From: Spiroplasma endosymbiont of Dioctria linearis | Lineage (GTDB): Bacteria; Bacillota_I; Bacilli_A; Mycoplasmatales; Mycoplasmataceae | DNA length: 64,000 bases | Direction of reading: 5' to 3' | Assembly (NCBI RefSeq): GCF_964030865.1 | Contig: NZ_OZ034984.1 | Span: 868,001 to 932,000 of the forward strand | Shown here: positions 4,001 through 16,477 of the stretch, in pieces | Layout: each line of letters begins with the position of its first letter | Numbering within the stretch: position 1 is the first letter of the stretch | The notes under the pieces: model-generated | What the model saw: only the letters and a program-made list of their open reading frames with translations | Databases searched by the model: none | What the model was told of the DNA's origin: nothing | Translations under genes and position numbers: made by a program

Positions 4001-4843
4001 ATGAATAAAATAATAGATGGTAAATTTTATGCTCAGGAATTAAATACTCGTCTCAAAAATAGTATAGAGCAAATAAATGGAAAAAGAAAACCAAAATTAA
4101 CAATAATTCAAATTGGCGATAATTTTGCAAGTAATAAGTACATAAAAAATAAATTAAATGCTTGTGAAAAAGTAGGAATTATTGGTGAGTTAAAAAAGTA
4201 TCAGGAAAATATTAAACAAAGTGAAATAGTTAGAGAAATTGAAAAGTTAAATAAAGATTTAACAGTTGATGGAATAATTGTCCAACTTCCATTACCTTCA
4301 CATATTAATGAAAAAGAAATTACAGATACAATTTCTCCTTTAAAAGACGCTGATGGCTTTACTCCTATAAATTTAGGAAATGTAATGTTAAATAAATCAA
4401 ATATTTATCCCGCAACACCTTATGGAATCATAAAGTTACTAGAGTGAAAAAAAATTAATTTAATTGGGGCAAATATTGTAATAATTGGAAGAAGCAATAT
4501 TGTAGGAAAACCTCTTGCTAATATGCTTATTAATAAATCAGCTACAGTTACAGTATGCAATACTAAAACAAAAGATTTAAAAAGAATTTGTAAAAATGCA
4601 GATGTTCTAATTAGTGCTGCTGGTGCTGCAAATTTAGTTACTAAGGATTTTGTGAATGATAAAATGACAATAATTGATGTAGGTGCTAATTTCGTGGATG
4701 GCAAGTATTGTGGAGATGTGAAATTTGATGAAGTATTTGAAATAGTTAAATATATTACACCTGTTCCAGGTGGTGTTGGTCCTATGACTATATCTTGTTT
4801 ATTAGAAAATACATTTAATCTTTATAGTCAAAAGGAGAACTAA
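4001..4843 (+). CDS. folD: Bifunctional methylene-THF dehydrogenase / methenyl-THF cyclohydrolase
   Basis: This 280-aa enzyme interconverts 5,10-methylene-THF and 10-formyl-THF using NADP(H). Seen are the catalytic Tyr47-xxx-Lys51 pair (YIKNK), VQLPLPSHI, the DADGFTPIN block, the Rossmann VVIIG-like IVIIGRSNIVGKPLA, and the C-terminal signature TPVPGGVGPMT. One Trp is encoded by TGA at 4444-4446. The start follows AGAAAGGA. It is divergent from fhs with about 40 bp between the starts; the two genes together supply one-carbon units for purine and fMet synthesis. A terminator overlaps its stop codon. Confidence 0.95.
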
Positions 4844-4857
4844 TTGTTCTCCTTTTT
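4831..4857. terminator. Bidirectional terminator folD / ECF-MFS gene
   Basis: Inverted repeat AAAGGAGAAC-TAATT-GTTCTCCTTT followed by a T-run. It contains the stop codons of both converging genes, which overlap by about 4 nt. Confidence 0.85.
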
Positions 4858-6669
4858 ATTATTTTTTAATAAAGAATTTGTTATTAATAAAACTGAAGCA
4901 ATAACTACAAAAGAGGACATAAGTAAAATCATTCCTAATATAGAAGCCTTAGTTAATAAAATAATCATAAAAAATATACTAGCAATAATTAATGAGAAGA
5001 AAGCATTCCCCATAACATGATCAATAATCATAGCTAATGAAAACTCTTCGTCAGTGACAATGCTTTTAAATCTTTTAGCTTTAGTTTTTTCAATTAAAGC
5101 ATAAGCAGTTCCAAATATAAACATTAGAATAATTAATAAAGAGTAGTAAATATTATTTATACTTGAGAAATTGACATAAATACTTGTTATTAAAAAACTT
5201 ATAAAGCCAATAACAGATATGATAGTTAATAGCATTGCTATTCTATTTACATTACTATTTTTAAATTTAATAGTTCCAAAAATTGCTTGAGCTAAATATT
5301 TTGAAATAAATCCAAAGATTAAAAATAATAACAATGACGCATTTTTTATTTCAGTGCTCATCATAATTTTATTATTTTCAAAACTTAGAAAAAAGAACAA
5401 TACTAAGGATCAATCTAGAAATTTAAAAAATCCTATAAAGTAATTTTGAATAAATATTTCAGTAAAAAATTTTTTATTACTTTTTAATGTTTTAAAAGAA
5501 TCCTTATTAATATTTAACACATTTCCCTCAGACATAATATTTGCATTAAATAAGAATAAGCTAATAAGAATAATCATTACTGCTATAAATAAGAATAATA
5601 TATATAAACTCTTTGAGTAATAATCTATTAGAAAAGGTATTGGTAGTAATAAAAAACCAAAAATAGAATTATATTTAGAGGTCTTATTTTTTAATCCATT
5701 CCTTCTTTCAAAACTTTTTATAATCTCAATATTTATTGGCAACAACCCTGCTACAAAAATCCCGAACATAGTTAATCCAGTAAATAATAATGAATTAGCT
5801 AGAGTAAAATTATTTGTTTCAAATGAACTAAATGTAAATACCAAAGCAAACAATAATCCAATTGAGTTAATTTTTAAAATATTTAAATTGCCAATTTTTT
5901 TAGCTAATTTAATTCACGATGGAGTTATAAATAACATCATTATAGGAACAATTATTATTGATGCTAAATAATTGATATCATTGAATTTTGTTACCATTTT
6001 ATATGGAACAAAACTAAAATAACTTATTAAAATCATCATTGAAATAATCATAGATGCCAATTGAATATTATAATTTATTTTTTTATTTGAAATCTTCAAA
6101 ATGTTATTCTCACTTTCTTCAATATATTTTTTAAATGAAATATTATATATAGATGAATATCTTCCCTCAATTTTTAAAAATAGATTTTGAAATCTTTTTA
6201 ATAAGAAAGGTGTTATTACACAGTACATAAAAAATATTATATAAGCCTCATGCAAATGTGTTAAATATAATGAGTAACCTTCAGTCTTACCATACGTAAA
6301 AATTGATACTAGCAAATATAAGGTTGTAATCATTAAAGCAAATACTGGTGCAATTATATAAACTACAATTTTGTTTTTTAATAAAAAATGTCTAAATAAA
6401 ATTATAGTTATATTAAAAAATAAGTAAATTGTAATTGTACAAATGCTTAAAATAATATCTATTGGCATTAATAAACTTAATAGTGATATTCCAATTGTTG
6501 ATAAAATTGAAATATTACCTTTCAAAAACAATGCCGTTAGTAGAATAATTAAAAGTGTTAAGTCTACACCTGGTAAAGGTGAAAAAATTAGTTTTAAACA
6601 CATTGCTAATGAAATCATCATAGCACTTGAAGTAAGATCTAAAATCTTATTACTGACATTTTTATTCAT
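4840..6669 (-). CDS. Membrane transporter: ECF-S-like N-terminus joined to MFS-like domain
   Basis: A single 609-aa integral membrane protein, read through two TGA Trp codons (5407 and 5911 regions). Residues 1 to about 165 form 5-6 hydrophobic segments; the stretch LIFSPLPGVDLTLLIILLTA followed by FLKGNISILSTIGISLLSLL resembles the substrate-binding S components of ECF vitamin transporters. From about residue 205 there are roughly 10-12 further membrane segments with a WIKLAKKIGNLNILK loop like the TM2-3 loop of the major facilitator superfamily. It lies next to folate genes, so a folate or other vitamin substrate is conceivable but unproven. The ribosome site GAGAGG is partly buried in a palindrome (see leader ORF). 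A two-gene ancestral arrangement is possible. Confidence 0.65.
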
Positions 6670-6760: not shown

Positions 6761-7357
6761 CTATCTTATTTTAAAATTAAACTCTCCATTTTCATTATCA
6801 AATATAACACCATCTCCATTCATTGAAAGTCTATCATTATAGATTTGAATTTCAACTTCTGAATGTGGTTGTTCAAAATAATCACAATTTTTATATCTAT
6901 CTGTTATTTTTATTACTCTTTGATTTTTACTACCAATAAGTCTTCTATTCTTATCTAAAAGTTTCATAATAAATGGTCCATCAATTAAAATATCTATATT
7001 TTTTAAAATATCCTTATGTTCTTCGAACATTTGTTCATAAATATATCCCGTAAAACAAATTACTGATAAATTATTTTTTTGACTTCAAATAACAAGTTCC
7101 TTTAAGCCATCCGGTTGTAAAAAAGGTTCCCCTCCAATTAGAGTGATACCTTCAATATTAAATAAAGTCTTTGCCTCTAAGATTTTCTCATAAATAAACT
7201 CATTTGGCATAAACATCTTTTTTTCTAAACCTAATAATTCCTGATTCGAACATCCATTGCATCCAATAGTGCAACCTTGAAATCAAATAACAAACCTAAT
7301 TCCTGGCCCTTCAATCTCACTATTCATAAGAAATTTTCCAATATTTAAATTAGCCAT
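6761..7357 (-). CDS. NrdG-like radical SAM protein (orphan)
   Basis: A 198-aa protein with the radical SAM cluster motif Cys29-xxx-Cys33-xx-Cys36 (in FQGCTIGCNGCSN), preceded by EIEGPGIRFVIW, and followed by LIGGEP at 73-78 (SAM-binding). These match NrdG, the activase of anaerobic ribonucleotide reductase. No NrdD is present in the window, and the gene is the last of an operon with AAA+ and helicase genes, overlapping the ClpB-like gene by 8 nt. Residues after about 150 are rich in charged and aromatic residues and extend past the minimal NrdG core. It may activate or modify a partner in the cassette rather than serve NrdD. This role is inference. Confidence 0.75.
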
Positions 7358-9161
7358 TAATATTAAATATTATTTTTCCTTCATTTGTTGAGGTTAAAAT
7401 TTTAGTTCCAGTTCTTATGCTTTTTAAATTCTGAAATATAAATTCTGAAAGTGGATCTACTAAATTAGTTTCAAGGGAGTTTAAAACATCTCTTCCACCT
7501 CTTCTTTCATCAGCATTTTTTAATATAATTTCAATTAAAGTTCTATCAGTTAAATCAATATGCAATTCAGCTTTATACTTTTCATAAATTGCAATTTGGA
7601 TTGGTTTTACTTTTTGACGTATTATTTTTGCTTTTAAATTTAAATCCTTTATAAAATTGAAAGGAACTATATTATTTCCAAATCTTCCTAAAAGTTCAGG
7701 TCTATTTAAATCATTTGTAAAATGATTTTGAACTTTTTTTATAAATTGATTATGAACTTCACTTGCACTTTGATTGGGATCAACTTCTGCTGCTCCAATA
7801 TTTGAAGTAAATATTATAAACGATTCACTAAAACTAACTGTTTGACCAGTATTATCTGTTAATCTTCCATCTTCAAGAATTTGTAAAAATTTATCAAATA
7901 TTTTTGGACTTGCCTTTTCAATCTCATCAAATAAAATTACACTAAATGGTTTTTCTTTTACTGAATTTGTCAGTTGTCCTCCACCCTCAAAACCAACATA
8001 TCCAGGAGGTGCTCCAATTAATTTCTGATCTGCATTTTCTTGTCCATACTCTGACATATCAAACCTTATAAGGTTCGCCTCATCATTAAATAAAAAAGTT
8101 GTAATAGCTTTTGCAAGTTCCGTTTTTCCAGTTCCAGTTGGACCTACAAAAAATAAAGTTCCTTTTGGTTTACTTCTTTTTGAAGAAAAAGTTATTCCAG
8201 TAAGCCCAGTATAAGCCTTATAAATTACTTTTGCTACTTTTGCAACAGCCTCATCTTGTCCAATAACTTTTGAAGAAAGTTCTTGTTTTATTGTCAACAT
8301 TTTTTCATAACTTAATTCTTCTCATGGAGAAGTCTTTTCTCCATAATTGTATATATTAAACATTTTATTAAAAGTAATTGGCGTTGCAAAATTACAACTG
8401 AACTTTGCAAAATGAGATAATTCTTTAAGTGTTCAACCTTCTGTTGCATCAACTATATTTTCAAACTCTGTTGAGATATCTGTAACTTGAATTCTCAATT
8501 TAATTGTAGATAAAAATTGCTTTCTTTCATCTCTACTTGGTTTTGGTAATGTTGAAATAATAATTTCAGGATTATCTAAGTATAAACTAGGTGGTAATTG
8601 ATTTATTTTTTTAGTTAAAAAAACAATACAGTTTGTTAGTTCATCAATTCTTGAAATTGAAAATTTAGATTCTTTTAATGTCTTTGAAAATTCTGTTAAA
8701 ACAGCTCTATCATCAACATCTAATCCTTGGTCACTGAAAACAAAATTAGTATAATCTGCTACAAAGCCAATTTTTCTTTCATCTTCTCTATTAATATTTT
8801 TATTTAAAAGAGTAAAGAAGTCAATTGGTTTTTTTAGAACTAAATGATCTTTAAAATCGCTTTTATCAATATCACCATTGAATAACTCATCAAATTCATT
8901 ACCAATAAATTCTCCATTACTTGATTTAATGGAAGAACTAGTAATTAGGCTCGTTATTTTTTTTCCTTTTAGCCCAGAATTTTGGTCAAAAATAAATTTA
9001 TCAGAGTATTTTTTTTGATCAAAAATACTAAAAATTATATCGTGGATATTTACATATTTACCCTCGAATTCATAAATATCATCTATATTCCCCTCAATTA
9101 TAATTGCCTTTTTAATACCTATTAAATTTTTTAACTGGTTTAATTCTCTCTTTACACTCAT
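7350..9161 (-). CDS. ClpB/ClpA-like AAA+ ATPase of the helicase cassette
   Basis: This 603-aa protein has a degenerate AAA-like N-terminal half (residues 1-240) without a visible Walker A. A complete ClpB D2-type module follows from about 288: VIGQDEAV, Walker A GPTGTGKT (340-347), pore loop PPGYVGFEGGG near 385, Walker B VILFDEIEKA (408-417), sensor FTSNIG, arginine finger LLGRFG, and a C-terminal RRGGRDV segment. It lacks the Clp N-domain and ClpB middle domain, and no ClpP-docking IGF-type loop is obvious. Such ATPases thread or remodel proteins. It sits between the coiled-coil gene (8-nt gap) and the radical SAM gene (8-nt overlap), so it is likely the remodelling motor of a complex. Confidence 0.85.
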
Positions 9162-9169
9162 AAATTCAC

Positions 9170-10261
9170 CTACTTACTTGAGTTCTTATTTTTTTTGTTA
9201 TTTATATTTTGCTTGTTTTTAGCAATATATTTTGGTTCTCTATACTGCTTATTAAATTCTTTACTTGAATGTAAGTTAAATTCTTTAAGTTTATTTAAAA
9301 AAGCCTGAGCATCAGCATCATGCTCATGACCTTCAAACCCTTCTCAATTATAAACAAAACTTCCATCTAATTTTACAACAAAGTCTGCTGTTTCACCAGT
9401 CAGTTTTTCACCATGAATAAGAATTAAATTTTTCTCTTTTATTTTTCTTATATTTTCTTCTTTTACTATATAACCAACTTCTCTTATTGACTTAACAATT
9501 TTTATTACATTATCTTTTCTAATTGCTTCTTGTTCAGCTAATTTTGATGAGCTTATAAAATAGTCTTTTATATCTTTTTGATAATTTTTTGTTTCTTTTA
9601 AGGAGATTAATTTATTAGCTTGCTCTTTAATAGCAGTTAATAAATCTGAATCCTCTTTATATAATTGAATTGAATTTTTAACTATTTCCTTACTCATTAC
9701 TCTATTAGAAGTTTTAAACTGCTTTAGTTCTTCAGTTATTAAATTAATAATTTCTTCAGGTTTTTTATTAATCAATCTATGTTGATTTTTTTCAAACATT
9801 TCTTTAATGAAAAGTTTATCTTTTTCATTTTTATATTTACTAATTAATTCATTTTTAAAACTTATTAAATCCCTAAAATTATCTTTAGTAAATACTTTTA
9901 AAATATTCTCTTGTTCTTTTATTAATACATCTCTTTTTAAACTAACCACCTGAACTTTAAATTCAGCTAACGTATCACGTTTTCTCTCTGCATATCTTTG
10001 AATTTCATGATAAGTTTCAATTGCAACATGTGTATTTGTAGAAAGATCTCTTTCATAAGTATTTCTTGCCAAATCCTTTTCTTCCTTTTTTAATTCTTCT
10101 AACAGCTTTTCAATTTCTTTTTTATAAAATCCTGAATTATCAATTTGCTCACAATGTGATATTAATTCAATAATATATTCAATTAATACATCAATATCTT
10201 TTTTGATAAATGAAAACTGTTTTTCACAATTAATTAAAATTTCTTCAGCTGACATACTCAT
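9170..10261 (-). CDS. Coiled-coil protein of the helicase cassette, 363 aa
   Basis: I do not recognise the family. Residues about 40-260 are highly charged heptad-like helix (Lys, Glu, Leu rich), a probable coiled coil. The C-terminal domain contains HGEKLTGETADFVVKLDGSF followed by YNWEGFEGHEHD and LNKLKEF; this DG...GF-G pattern with a later Leu-rich helix is faintly like the DUF2997 type of small protein encoded beside AAA ATPases, but I would not claim it. The tail is Lys/Asn rich. The start has GGAGGAAA 7 nt upstream; a second Met two codons later is also possible. It follows the 757-aa gene after 2 nt, indicating translational coupling. Confidence 0.75.
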
Positions 10262-10263
10262 GC

Positions 10264-12537
10264 TTATTTTCCTCCAAACATATTAGTATACTTTAATAAA
10301 TCAGTTTGTGTATATTTTCTCTCTTTTCCAAAAATAATATTTAAGGCTTTTTTATAATAATTATCATTATTTTTTAAAATCTTATCTACAATTTTAGGCT
10401 TATTTAAAACATTTTTAACTCATATTAATTTTAACTCAATTGGCATATTATATATTTTTTTATCTATAAATTCATTTATATCATTTTCTATCTTATTTAT
10501 ATAATTTCCAGCCATAATTTTAACTTTATAATCTATTATTTCTTCTGTTTTTTGAAGAAACTGTTCACTTTTATATTTGTAATAATATCTATAAAAATCT
10601 GTTAACGAGTCAGATAAATTTAAAAGATACTGATCAAAATTTTCAATATCTAATGAGTTACCAACCAACTCTATAATAGAATCCAATAAAAATTTATAAT
10701 TCTCTTCTACAAATTTATAGTTAGAAATATATAATTCCTTAGTTATTTTTCCAATAATATTTAAAGTTTGAGCATGTTGAGTTCATACATCAGAGTTATA
10801 TTTATTATCAACAAACATCTCTGCTCTATTATTTGTTTTGAAATATTTTGTTAATACACCTAAAGAATCTCTAACATTATATTTTCAACCATCAATTGAA
10901 TTTTTTTCTAAATAACTATTAATTCTATAAATATTTTCAATTGTACTTTGCATATTTATTTTGTCGAATATATCCAATATATTTTTTGTATCAATAAATT
11001 GATAATTTTCTAATATATCAAATAATTCATCATCTGTTCTTTCATTAGATATTTTTATAATTAAATTTTTTGCAACTCTTTCTAATATTAAAGATAATTT
11101 TCTATCGGTTTTTTCTGCTAAATATTGTTTAATAGCATTATAATTTTGCCCAAAATCAACCGTCTTAAGTAAAAATTCTTCAAGAATTGCAGAGACTTTT
11201 TCTTCTAAACCAAGACGTTCCAAAATTAAGTATATATTCATTGATATATCATACTTTTTATTTATAAGTGAATCTTCAAATTTTTCTAAAGCATTATCTA
11301 TACTAGATATAAATAGATTTGCTAAATCAATATGTTCAGTTGGGTTTTTATACTTATAAATAACAGGAATATTTATATTAATAGACTCAAAAGATTTATT
11401 TGCCAATAAAAAACTATTTGACATATTTTTAGAATCCAAATAGACAAAAGAATTATTTTGTAAAATTTCATTGTCAATATGGCCAACATAAAAAATTAGC
11501 TTATTATCTATTACACTTATTGTTTTTGTATTTCTTTTGGAATTATAGAAAATAATTATTTCAATGTTTTTTGCTAACTCTTTACTCTTTATAATTTCAT
11601 CATCTGATTTTATAAATTGATCATTTATTAACATTAAATTATAACTTGTTTTAATATTTAAATTTGAAAATAAGTCTGGGTTAGACATAAAGTCATTTTT
11701 ATTTTTTATATGTAACTCTGGCATAAATAATTTTTTTATTTTTTCATCATACTTACTTAAGATACTTTTCAAAATATCTAATGCCATATTAGGATTGAAT
11801 CTTAAATAGTCATCAAAAAAATTGCTCTCAGTTTTAATTTTATAAGTACCATTATCAAATAACTCAATTCAAGCTTCTATGGCTGCTGTATCATTTTGAA
11901 TATACTTTTCAAAGTTACTAATATCATTTATTGATTCTTGCGCTTCATTTATAACATCCCTTAAAAAAGAATTATCTCCAAAAATGTCAGGATTTTGGTC
12001 TATAAATTCAGAACATGAATTGTAAAGTCACTCATTATTTGAGAACTCTTTTTTATCTATTGTTGTAGAAAGTTTGTGAGTAAACTTAACATCGCTTACT
12101 CTTTTTTTTCAATTAATTTCATTGATAATTTCCTTATTCTTATAAACAGGATCTATATAAAATTTTATATCTTGAAATTTATTATCTTGAGAAATTGTGT
12201 ACGTTCCCTTTTTAAACTCTTCTTTTAATTTTAAGTCAATTGAAAAATTATTAATTGGTGTATTCATATTTAATAGTCCTACACCAACTTTATTTTGACC
12301 AATTTCTATTACTTTAAAATTTATTAACTCTCTTAAGGCTCTCTCAAAAAGAATTTTATTTTTGATATTAAAATCTTCTTCCAAAATATCATTAATATTT
12401 TTATTTTTATTTGGATGTTCTATTATAATTAATAAAATTAAAAATTCCATAAATGTAGGTTTTCTTATTTCAGAATACTTTATTTTTAATGGTATATAAA
12501 ATTTTTCATATTGAATTTCAATTTTATTAAATATCAT
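10264..12537 (-). CDS. Unknown cytoplasmic protein of the helicase cassette, 757 aa
   Basis: One continuous frame through TGA Trp codons at the 12106, 11800s, 10882 and 10417 regions. The N-terminal 75 residues (MEFLILLIIIEH, NDILEED, LFERALRELINFKVIEI) could form a winged-helix-like unit. The middle (about 255-420) alternates strands and helices, with IEIIIFYNSKRNTKTISVID suggesting a Rossmann-like strand pattern. The C-terminal third is alpha-helical. No transmembrane segment or catalytic motif is visible. It is 4 nt downstream of the helicase stop and 2 nt upstream of the coiled-coil gene. A role as scaffold or sensor is a guess from context only. Confidence 0.75.
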
Positions 12538-12541
12538 TTTT

Positions 12542-15500
12542 CTAATCCTCCATTATTTCATTAGGTTTAAGTAAACAACCTTCAAACTCAAGTTTTGATA
12601 TTATATCAGCATAAACTTGATAACTATTTGAAACACTTGGGTCATCAATAGTTGGTATCTTAACAGTTATATCATTTACTGCTCTTTGAGCCCCTATTAT
12701 TATTAGTAATTCTCTTGCTCTTGAAAAAGCTACATTTATTCTTTCATATTTTTTTAGAAAGTCTCTTCCAGATTTAGTTGATAACTTTTCTGGATTTCTT
12801 ACTAAGTTTACTAAAACATAATCTGCTTCTTTTCCTTGAAAATCATCAACTGTATTAATTACTATATTTATATTTTTAAAGTTAGCAATATTGATCTCTT
12901 TTTTTAATTTATTTACATGCAGTCCATAAAAACTAATTACAGCAACACTTGGTTTTATTTTTTGTTTTTTCTCTAAAACTGCTTTATCAATTTTAATTAA
13001 TAATTGTTTGGTTAATTTTATTTCTAAATCATTAAATAAACTAGTTGAAAAATCTTCACTTTGTTCATAACTAATTTCATTTTTTACATTATATGTAGAA
13101 TCAACTCAATAAGAAGAATTTCTTGAGTTAATTATTTCTTTATTAAAATGATTAATAATTTTTAAGTCATGTCTTTTTTGCTCACTTACTTGTGACTCAA
13201 CTTTTAATTGTCCATCATAAAATTTATTTACAATTTCCATAATTTGTTCATGACTTCTATACTGAGTTTTAAGAATAGTAGTTATATTTTTATTTTTTGC
13301 AGATATAAGTTTCTTAAAAGCAGAATCATCTAATAATTCATACATCAAATTATAATTGTAATCTTTATTAAAATGTTTATTAACATCTTCAACATCATTT
13401 GGTTGCAATTTTAATATTGGTGGTAATTGTCTGTAATCACCTACTAATATTAAAGATTTACCATAAATTAAAGGCATTAAGATTTCCAATATAGTAGCCT
13501 TTGAAGCTTCATCAATTATAACAACATCAACATCCATGTTTCTTAAATTTAATTCTTCCAGCCCTAATTTATTAGCAAAGTTATCTTTTGTAAATTTAAA
13601 TAAATTTGTAGATGTTAGTGTCATTGAATATACGTTAACTAAATTATCCAAAATGGTTTTTATGTATTTTTGACTATCTTTAAAAGTTTGACCAGTAAAA
13701 TTCTTTGAGGCAAGTTCTTCATTAAAATTATTTGTTATTTTATAATTGTCATTTAAATATTTTATTATTGAAGAGTACATTTCTGAAAAGTTTTCTTTTC
13801 TTATTCTACCTTGTTTCAACTTTTTTTCTAAATTTTTTAATTCCGATTTTACCTGTTCTTCTAAATCAATATCAGTTAGGCCAAGGTCTAATGAAAACTT
13901 ATCATTAACTACTTTTATCAATTCTCTAAGCTCTCTAGCACTTGATCCAGCATTTTCAGCTAAATTATTCTTTGTAACTATTAATTGATTTTTTTCAATT
14001 TCAAATTTATCTAAATTAAAATCTGAGAATACTTCATTCTCTTTATTTTGTAATCTTAATTCTATTTCTACTTTTAAATTTCTTAGGCTAACCAAAAAAG
14101 TTTCAAATATTTTATTTAATTCATTAACTTTAATATCAGTTCTTAAAATTTGTTCCAGACCTTTAATTCTGCTTTCTTCTTTTTCAGCTAAATCAAAATC
14201 AGCATTTCTTTTGTACTTGTTTAAAATTAATTTTGATTTTTTAATTTCTAAAAATGCTTCATTTTTATAATAAACTTCATTTACAATTTCTTTTATTAAT
14301 AAGTAAGGATTTAAAAAATCTTTTGGATCAAAATTTAAATTTATATAAACAAAATTGTTTAATTCAAATTTAATTGAATTTTCATAACAACTAATTATTC
14401 TTTCTCCCACATTAATTAAGGCATCAAATTCTTTTGTCGATATAGTCTCAATTAAATTTATTACATTTATTAATTCCTCTTTTAATAAATTTTTTGATCT
14501 AACCTTTTCTAATTTTTTTTCTTTAAAAGCTGTTATTTGATTATTCAAATCATCTATTTTTTCTTGAATACTTCTAACTTGATTATTATTTTGATAAAAA
14601 CTTTTATTCGCGTTTATTAATCTTTCTAATTCATTTTTATAATTATTAAATTCCTTTATTAAATTTTCATCATTGTTCATATCATCAAAAGCTCTTTTTC
14701 CAATAGCCTTATAATAATTGTAAAGAACTCTATCAGGCGAATAACTATTTGAAGATTGTGATTTTATATTTAACTGATTTGTTAATCTTATTTTATTAAG
14801 ATTAGGGTCAATTGGTAATCTGTCAACAACATTTTTAATAGCTTCATGATTCTGACTTGAAATAAGAACCTTTCTATTTATTTTTGCTAATTGAGTTATT
14901 ATTTCACAAATTACTTGAGTTTTTCCAGTTCCAGGAGGTCCTTGCAAAATAAAAATATCTTTTGTATTAATAGCTTTTCTTACTGCATCCTTTTGTTCAG
15001 CATTTAAAGTAAAATTAAAGTCTGTATCTTCTATTCTAATATCATTTGACACTTCTGATAATTCTACTAGCTTTGTATTAAATAAATAATTTATTAAATA
15101 AGGGTTTTTTGTATTTCCCTCTGATACTTTTTTTATTACTTGCTTAGACCTTTCAATTAGAACATCTTCACCAATTCCAGTATATGCAATGTATCCTGAA
15201 CTTAAAGATTCTAAATTACTATTTAAAAATATTGACTCATCAAAATCCTGTTCAATTTCAAAGTTTATTTTTTTGACTTTTCATTGTTGCATTTCTTTTG
15301 GGTTATTTTTCATTAATATATCAAATTCATTTTTTTCCCCAAGAAAAATATTTTTACTATTTTTCATTCAATAATTTGCAAAACTTATTTCTTCATCTGA
15401 AACACCTAGCATATTTGATACTTGTAATATATTTTTAATGTCATTAATTTTATCAAGATCAAAATCAAAAATTTCATGAATATTTTTAATAAGTTCATGG

Positions 15501-16399
15501 GTAGTTAAAATATTTTTATTCATTTTTATTGGTACAAGAGATAAGTCTTTTGTTTTTTTAATTCTATTAATTTTTTCTAATTCATCAGTTAAAAGGTCCA
15601 AAGTAACTACATAAGAAATTTGATATGGAATTCTTTTATTTTTTAAATAAGATTCTGAATTTACTAATAAATATTTATAGGCTCTAGTTTTAAATTCTTT
15701 AATCTCATACTCAAATACGTTAGAGTCAAAATAAATTTTATCTATTCTCATTACCTTTTGATAGTTTAAACCCAAATAAGGTAAAGATTTTTTTCTATCT
15801 AGTTTCAATAAATCATCACTAAATTCTAAATAGTTCAATCATTTATCTTTTTCTTCTTCAAATGTAGATAGTAATTTTCCTATTTCAGAAAGATTAGAAG
15901 AGTTTAAAACATTTCTTCTAATTAACTCTTCATCTTTAATTTGACCTTGATTTCTAATTATTAGAATTTGTGATTCTTGTATTATTGTTTCAAACTCTTG
16001 AGCTACTGGCTTTAATCTTGTCATAAATATAGAACTTATAATAAGAGAAGCATTCATAGTATCAATGTTTACATAAAACCCAAGATAAGTTCCTTCAGGT
16101 AAAAGACTTTGATTTTTTGAGTCTAACTCAATTCTTATAATTCCATTATAAGATGCTTTATTCTTATCTTTTTTAGAGAATTGTCTGGTTTTGTTGTCTA
16201 AAAGACAGATAAATGATTTTTTAGCAAGAGAGCTTCTCAAAAAGTTTTGAAACTCCACACAAGTATTTATACCCCTTATATCTAATTGTTCTATTATTTG
16301 ATCTAAACTAGATGGGTTTTCTTTAAATTGAACATTTTGTAAAAAAGAGAAGTCTAATATTATTTCCTTAACTGCATTATTCTCAATAATATTTGACAT
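12542..16399 (-). CDS. UPF1/DNA2-like superfamily 1 helicase, 1285 aa
   Basis: A very large protein spanning several TGA-split frames. Residues 1-450 are a mixed alpha/beta region of unknown type. The helicase core starts at about 465 (FTLNAEQKDAVRKA), Walker A GPPGTGKT at 487-494, SSQNHEAIKNV, then a long coiled-coil insertion (about 560-900), Walker B IIDEAS (961-966), VGDYRQLPP, TQYRSH, VDDFQGKEADYV and INVAFSRARELLIIIG. These are SF1B UPF1/DNA2/NAM7 motifs; such enzymes move on RNA or DNA with ATP. It is the first gene of a five-gene operon with its own -10 (TATAAT) upstream. Its partners suggest nucleic-acid surveillance or defence, which is inference. Confidence 0.9.
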
Positions 16400-16427: not shown

Positions 16428-16433
16428 ATTATA
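16428..16433 (-). promoter_or_regulatory. Candidate -10 element of the helicase cassette
   Basis: TATAAT on the minus strand, 28 nt before the helicase ATG, just downstream of the ferritin terminator. No good -35 at 17 nt is seen; TTGATA lies 22 nt upstream. It implies the cassette is transcribed independently of the ferritin gene. Confidence 0.45.
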
Positions 16434-16448
16434 ACATTTTTAGTTAAT

Positions 16449-16477
16449 TAAAAAATATCAACCAAAAGGCTGATATT
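16449..16477 (-). terminator. Terminator of the ferritin gene
   Basis: On the minus strand AATATCAGCC-TTTT-GGTTGATATT followed by TTTT, 6 nt after the ferritin stop codon. Confidence 0.75.

Follow-up and report, generated by a model that had tools for sequence, protein, structure and literature searches.

The described bacterial systems closest in logic to the locus reported here are the CoCoNuTs and Mokosh. Type II and III CoCoNuTs derive from McrBC, have a UPF1-like helicase alongside coiled coils and an AAA+ motor, and are predicted to target RNA (PMC11090510). Mokosh (MkoA and MkoC in PADLOC) carries a UPF1-like helicase domain, and in eukaryotes the nonsense-mediated mRNA decay (NMD) machinery pairs UPF1 with SMG6, a PIN nuclease. 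Here we analyzed a 64,000-nt stretch (the window) from the genome of the Spiroplasma endosymbiont of Dioctria linearis, a single 1.23-Mb contig in which TGA encodes tryptophan. The subject is a cassette of five adjacent open reading frames (ORFs) on the minus strand of the window (positions 6761-16399), encoding a UPF1/SMUBP2-like superfamily 1B (SF1B) helicase, a protein of 757 amino acids (aa), a coiled-coil protein, an AAA+ protein and a radical S-adenosylmethionine (SAM) protein. The order of these five genes recurs in distant bacteria and on plasmids, and the cassette belongs to none of the named systems that we tested.

Like type II/III CoCoNuTs, the cassette brings together a UPF1-like SF1 helicase, an AAA+ motor and a coiled coil in one operon, with predicted RNA targeting. 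Unlike them, it has a ClpB-type AAA protein with a degenerate first domain, an NrdG-like radical SAM protein and, on gene 2, a PIN or HEPN domain, and no McrBC domain (McrB/CnuB GTPase or McrC/CnuC) was found in the cassette. The likeness to Mokosh is limited to the helicase, which matched MkoA strongly (E = 1e-91) but only through its helicase part (profile positions 493-1082 of 1112); neither MkoB nor any other Mokosh component matched among the five proteins, and four other conserved genes set the cassette apart. Against PLuB_AAA the helicase scored 138 bits, compared to a cutoff of 999. Filing the set as Mokosh, PLuB or CoCoNuT was rejected on these grounds. The cassette resembles NMD in that a PIN nuclease accompanies its UPF1-like helicase, the nearest PIN structure being that of EST1A/SMG6, but no Cys-His domain was seen in the cassette helicase, and the AAA, coiled-coil and radical SAM proteins have no NMD counterpart. 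Because PIN_4 is a broad family present in many bacteria, we do not claim a special kinship with SMG6. We found no description of the gene set in the open-access literature, PADLOC-DB 2.0 or NCBIfam 20, although closed literature and supplements may differ.

Recurrence and boundaries of the five-gene order

All 20 genus genomes encode a homolog of the 757-aa protein, as do members of additional genera in the family. The five genes were intact and in the same order in 19 of the 20 genus genomes and in five genomes from other genera, while the twentieth (G043; locus L045) had all five in order with three of them interrupted (helicase, gene 2 and radical SAM). The same order was found in other genera of the Spiroplasma family and in Bacilli. 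Using the AAA protein as a tblastn query, we also identified full-length relatives with same-order neighbors on plasmids of Photobacterium, Acinetobacter, Moellerella, Polaromonas and Leisingera, where the annotated order reads 'AAA domain-containing protein', PIN domain-containing protein, hypothetical, AAA family ATPase and '4Fe-4S single cluster domain protein'. Scanning two short AAA-family motifs against ~85,000 species genomes returned 53 loci, which is a lower bound. Gene order and strand were identical in 38 of the 40 loci having all five families, with frequent 4-nt overlaps. The 40 complete loci span about nine phyla (Pseudomonadota, Lentisphaerota, Actinomycetota, Planctomycetota, Synergistota, Campylobacterota, Fibrobacterota, Bacillota and Mycoplasmatota), although some are contigs of metagenome-assembled genomes whose phylum label may occasionally be wrong. 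In a sample of the class, a related AAA protein occurred in 12 of 193 genera, some of them in a kinase-type context or a context lacking the radical SAM gene.

Such agreement, across every genus member and 38 of 40 distant loci, far exceeds chance. The first-pass annotation, made from the letters of the window, had suggested examining whether the neighborhood recurs across bacteria, and the outcome was strongly positive. It had also named two findings that would undo its proposal: that the five genes rarely occur together elsewhere, or that each belongs to a known unrelated pathway. Neither was borne out, as the genes co-occur in distant bacteria and on plasmids, and comparison with NCBIfam and PADLOC together with a survey of NrdD and pyruvate-formate-lyase (PFL) placed none of the five in such a pathway.

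Translation under table 4 recovered the five-gene unit at the same coordinates and with the same spacings as that annotation had given, with junctions from gene 1 to gene 5 of +4, +2, +8 and -8 nt, the last 8 nt of gene 4 also forming the start of gene 5. The genetic code matters here because all five ORFs break at TGA codons under table 11, a reading that yielded only fragments and was rejected. The suggestion that the operon has its own -10 box also stood: a putative extended -10 element (TGtTATAAT; 16428-16436, minus strand) lies 29 nt upstream of the helicase start codon. It was recognized by eye from the consensus only and was not listed by a consensus promoter scan, which requires a -35 hexamer. 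Further upstream, an intrinsic terminator of a ferritin-like gene (16454-16477, minus strand; one found versus 0.0 expected in shuffles) isolates the operon from that gene, as expected from the proposed independence of the two. Ferritin was rejected as a part of the system, given this terminator and the absence of the gene beside the cassette in three other loci (L040-L042). Downstream of the radical SAM gene lies a gene for a 609-aa predicted membrane protein (window 4840-6669), fast-evolving and without a Pfam match, and a search for a terminator between the two genes found none. We place the membrane gene outside the set because several relatives lack it or have it elsewhere.

The five proteins

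In Pfam and NCBIfam, the assignments of the helicase, AAA and radical SAM proteins were confirmed, whereas genes 2 and 3 of the window had no confident family. Gene 1 (12542-16399, minus strand; 1285 aa) begins with a ~440-aa region of unassigned fold, followed by two RecA-like domains and a long helical insertion. Its SF1 motifs are complete and conserved among homologs (GPPGTGKT, residues 487-494; DE, 963-964; GDYRQLPP, 987-994; NVAFSRA, 1222-1228), and the closest solved structures are SMUBP2, DNA2, UPF1 and SEN1. Motifs, family matches and structure matches therefore agree on a UPF1-like SF1B helicase, as first labeled. UPF1 proper carries an N-terminal Cys/His-rich CH domain, but residues 1-440 of gene 1 contain just two cysteines and its PDB profile matches to UPF1 are confined to the helicase part.

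Gene 2 (10264-12537, minus strand; 757 aa) has an N-terminal module of ~230-270 residues that all lineages have in common, as seen by profile comparison (E = 1e-10 to 1e-12); in the window protein it occupies approximately residues 1-250, and the AlphaFold2 model was confident for the N-terminal part only. The C-terminus differs between lineages. In most it is a PIN_4 domain, for which the closest solved structure is the PIN of human SMG6/EST1A (E = 3.4e-13), and a strict pattern of PIN catalytic acids was present in 35 of 43 non-mollicute homologs. In Bacilli the C-terminus is of the HEPN type, with the motif RNxxxHP in the five versions aligned; the Pfam family DUF4145 was reached in one of them (L145) and not in another (L143). 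DUF4145 is a HEPN family of predicted RNases (PMC3710099). These HEPN-bearing Bacilli versions are sister to those of mollicutes, whose C-termini gave a different picture. That of the window protein is helical. PIN_4 was not found in it or in the aligned mollicute homologs by Pfam or alignment, and the HEPN signature Rx4-6H appeared neither as a conserved motif nor as a profile match in mollicute gene-2 proteins. Profile comparison of the C-termini for a hidden HEPN or PIN domain gave nothing, Foldseek returned nothing below E = 0.02, and the predicted local distance difference test score (pLDDT) of AlphaFold2 was mostly <50 in this region. PIN and HEPN domains are thus exchanged on a common gene-2 N-terminus, with neither recognized in mollicutes. 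Separately, in two Bacilli the gene immediately after the cassette radical SAM gene is RNase III-like (L145:11876-12376 and L147:12402-12911).

Gene 3 (9170-10261, minus strand; 363 aa) encodes an adaptor-like coiled-coil protein, with long helices over residues 5-261 and then a small alpha-beta C-terminal domain (approximately residues 245-333) that holds nearly all of its conserved residues (E245, R248, G289, G311 and D317). Foldseek returned nothing significant for this domain. Resemblance to KA1-like and spermine-synthase N-terminal domains was weak (Z = 8-9), and no homology is claimed.

Gene 4 (7350-9161, minus strand; 603 aa) consists of a degenerate AAA-like N-terminal half without a Walker A motif, a linker carrying the family motif SPWExL...AYTGLTG and a C-terminal domain of the ClpB-D2 type with an intact Walker A (GPTGTGKTE), Walker B (LFDEIEKA) and GGR arginine; these motor motifs are conserved across AAA homologs. 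The C-terminal assignment is reflected in its family scores (168 bits for AAA_2/ClpB-type versus 39.5 for AAA_5). The initial description as a ClpB-like AAA+ protein thus stands for the active domain and fails for ClpB itself: compared to ClpB and ClpA, gene 4 lacks the N domain, the middle domain and Walker A in the first AAA domain, and it reached 260 bits against a ClpB cutoff of 1232, over the D2 part only, so that we also rejected filing it as ClpB. In a comparison of just four sequences on long branches, eight AAA positions were lost only in a paralog that occurs without radical SAM.

Gene 5 (6761-7357, minus strand; 198 aa) has the short radical SAM fold of NrdG and PFL activase, without an auxiliary cluster domain, and its closest solved fold is pyruvate-formate-lyase activase. 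It carries the CX3CX2C signature of the superfamily (C29, C33 and C36), found also in 52 of 52 related radical SAM proteins, together with a GGEP motif, and scores over the Pfam cutoff. The term 'NrdG-like' had been applied to it at the outset and holds for the fold, but not for NrdG function. The protein scored 100 bits against TIGR02491 (NrdG), below the cutoff of 126.1, and unlike NrdG and PFL activases it does not adjoin a gene for a glycyl-radical enzyme. The genome of the window encodes nrdD followed directly by nrdG away from the cassette (G000:C1:383220-385852; L136:5221-7853). NrdD is missing from six of the 20 genus members, and four genomes (G029, G039, G040 and G045) that lack both NrdD and any PFL-type glycyl-radical domain still keep the cassette radical SAM gene intact. 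Across phyla, this gene nearly always adjoins the AAA gene.

Additional genes accompany the radical SAM gene in some lineages. In the S. citri clade, a peroxiredoxin (Redoxin/AhpC-TSA) is fused to it or follows it (L102:11807-12910, L154:8372-8872 and L151:8567-9067). More than a dozen loci have a second radical SAM gene next to the cassette, possibly as an accessory module. These genes are either of the SPASM type, accompanied at some loci by a JmjC gene, or radical-SAM-like, accompanied at some by a PHP-domain gene (L064, L066, L067, L079, L080, L082 and L111; L070, L078, L084, L087, L088 and L096).

Inheritance, mobility and related gene sets

Within the genus, the cassette is inherited vertically and strongly constrained, and outside mollicutes it moves horizontally. 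Ratios of nonsynonymous to synonymous substitution rates (dN/dS) against the two closest relatives were 0.04-0.08 for the AAA and radical SAM genes, 0.06-0.07 for the helicase and 0.07-0.15 for genes 2 and 3. In the AAA tree, mollicutes group with Bacilli (support 100/97), and proteobacterial copies differing by a few percent have jumped between families. We found the set on ten plasmid records, seven of them predicted to be conjugative, and integrase and transposase genes lie beside it in some loci outside mollicutes. No match was found in phages by tblastn with the N-terminal half of the AAA protein, or in E. coli genomes by a DNA-level search. The cassette is also dispensable, because it is broken in G043, is missing from several other genera of the family and is reduced in S. 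poulsonii (L105), where homologs of genes 1-3 were not found at the locus beside the AAA and radical SAM genes. In Helicobacter suis (L097), the helicase gene is in pieces.

To describe the surroundings of the set, 88 flanking proteins from 12 loci were compared with 88 control proteins from distant sites in the same genomes. Matches among the flanking proteins included type I restriction-modification (R-M) subunits, BrxL of BREX, JukA, mad8 (MADS-type), CARF-Lon and PDC-S14. Among the 25 families listed for the controls were only apparent housekeeping look-alikes, for example UvrD (matched as GajB) and cysteine desulfurases (as DndA/SspA).

Two other arrangements share parts of the cassette. 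A sister set of four genes without radical SAM (helicase, a protein X, coiled coil and AAA) occurs in G042 (L137:3051-11562), in G029 (L139:8685-17213) and, in a related family, in two further genomes (L140 and L141), with a homologous coiled coil (E = 2e-9); in G029 it adjoins an abortive infection phage resistance (AIPR) gene. This sister set is variable, because the close relative G042 has it and no second AAA match was found in the genome of the window. AAA and radical SAM genes also co-occur in other Firmicutes that lack genes 2 and 3 at the locus. On an Aristaeella plasmid (L033:1137-18999), an unnamed cassette combines genes of these AAA and radical SAM families with genes for a DUF4011 helicase, a Ser/Thr kinase, an FHA protein and a PP2C phosphatase. 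This cassette and those at L149 and L150 resemble the five-gene set in having the same AAA family (~35% identity, over the full length in L033) with radical SAM adjacent or near, and differ in that homologs of gene 2 or the coiled coil were not found; on the Aristaeella plasmid, signaling proteins are present instead.

Interpretation and alternatives

With moderate confidence, we interpret the cassette as an undescribed, probably RNA-directed conflict or surveillance system that was kept in Spiroplasma after loss of its nuclease. Its mechanism can be sketched from families and domains. The helicase would load on and track along nucleic acid, most likely RNA, with gene 2 docking through its N-terminal module and delivering a C-terminal effector, in most lineages a predicted PIN or HEPN RNase. 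The coiled-coil protein may scaffold the complex, the AAA+ ring may assemble, arm or reset it using ATP, and the radical SAM protein may mature or license a cassette protein through radical modification; the five products would form one physical complex. The Spiroplasma version would probably bind and remodel foreign or aberrant RNA or ribonucleoprotein (RNP) without cutting, or use an effector of a type not recognized here. A fuller formulation makes the cassette a bacterial analog, not a pathway homolog, of UPF1-SMG6: an RNA surveillance device licensed by radical SAM and driven by AAA, with interchangeable PIN and HEPN domains, serving as widespread mobile immunity and persisting in Spiroplasma as a vertical, nuclease-free form. 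In that full form, the proposal is doubtful.

Several observations weigh against a conflict or surveillance system acting on RNA. SMUBP2- and DNA2-like helicases match gene 1 as well as UPF1 does, and the RNA target is our inference. Mollicute gene 2 carries no recognized nuclease, and none of the 20 genus genomes encodes a PIN_4 or DUF4145 protein anywhere. Unlike a typical defense system, the genus locus is mostly fixed between leuS and folD/FTHFS, and cassette identity correlates with that of LeuS within the genus (0.94-0.985), as expected under vertical inheritance. The comparison of defense neighbors spans 12 loci and leans partly on one type I R-M locus.

The first-pass annotation had offered RNP quality control and anti-phage or anti-plasmid defense as two possible functions, and the evidence divides between them by lineage. 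Outside mollicutes, the defense idea gains indirect support because the set is patchy, plasmid-borne, mobile and near defense genes, with its RNase swapped; judged from genomic context, it is most likely a mobile anti-phage or anti-plasmid system there. RNP quality control explains the genus locus no less well, because this locus is vertical, constrained and without PIN or HEPN. That the Spiroplasma cassette is a housekeeping or stress system for quality control of ribosomes or mRNA, with any defense-like use elsewhere being secondary or separate, is a real possibility, if somewhat on the unlikely side. It is kept in all 20 genus members, mostly in a conserved place, the dN/dS of its AAA and radical SAM genes is as low as that of LeuS, the nuclease has been lost, and in some relatives it has iron or redox neighbors (the ferritin-like gene upstream, peroxiredoxin in the S. 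citri clade). Nonetheless, its absence from several genera of the family, the pseudogenized copy in G043 and the S. poulsonii locus imply that it is not essential, and elsewhere it is carried on plasmids and near defense genes.

Some PIN-fold nucleases cut DNA, and the best helicase matches include SMUBP2 and DNA2, both of which count toward a DNA-directed anti-plasmid or anti-phage system whose helicase would act on single-stranded DNA and whose PIN domain would be a DNase. We consider this unlikely and favor RNA rather than DNA as the target, because the alternative effector is a HEPN domain (DUF4145) of the predicted RNase class (PMC3710099) and because an RNase III-like gene follows the cassette in two Bacilli. 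It is very improbable that the cassette is a variant of Mokosh, PLuB or CoCoNuT sharing the helicase: the matches to MkoA and PLuB_AAA, and the similar grouping of a UPF1-like helicase, coiled coils and AAA+ in type II/III CoCoNuTs (PMC11090510), are outweighed by the lack of a second Mokosh component among the five proteins, a PLuB score far under its cutoff and an AAA protein of ClpB rather than McrB type with no McrC-type domain found. We give least credence of all to gene 5 being an activase of NrdD or PFL whose operon membership is incidental; although NrdG is its nearest named family, the subthreshold score, the separate nrdD-nrdG pair, its retention in four genomes without NrdD or PFL and its adjacency to the AAA gene across phyla all argue otherwise.

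If the cassette is indeed an RNA-directed conflict or surveillance system, it would be an unnamed one spanning about nine phyla. We found no described precedent for such a combination, in which an AAA+ motor and a UPF1-like helicase are almost always accompanied by a radical SAM enzyme. The exchange of PIN and HEPN, together with the absence of both in mollicutes, suggests that effector and recognition parts may be genetically separable. With such a system, RNA surveillance or immunity would become a new role for radical SAM chemistry, and the UPF1-PIN partnership of mRNA decay in eukaryotes would have a bacterial counterpart. For Spiroplasma, it would supply a testable function for a large conserved operon.

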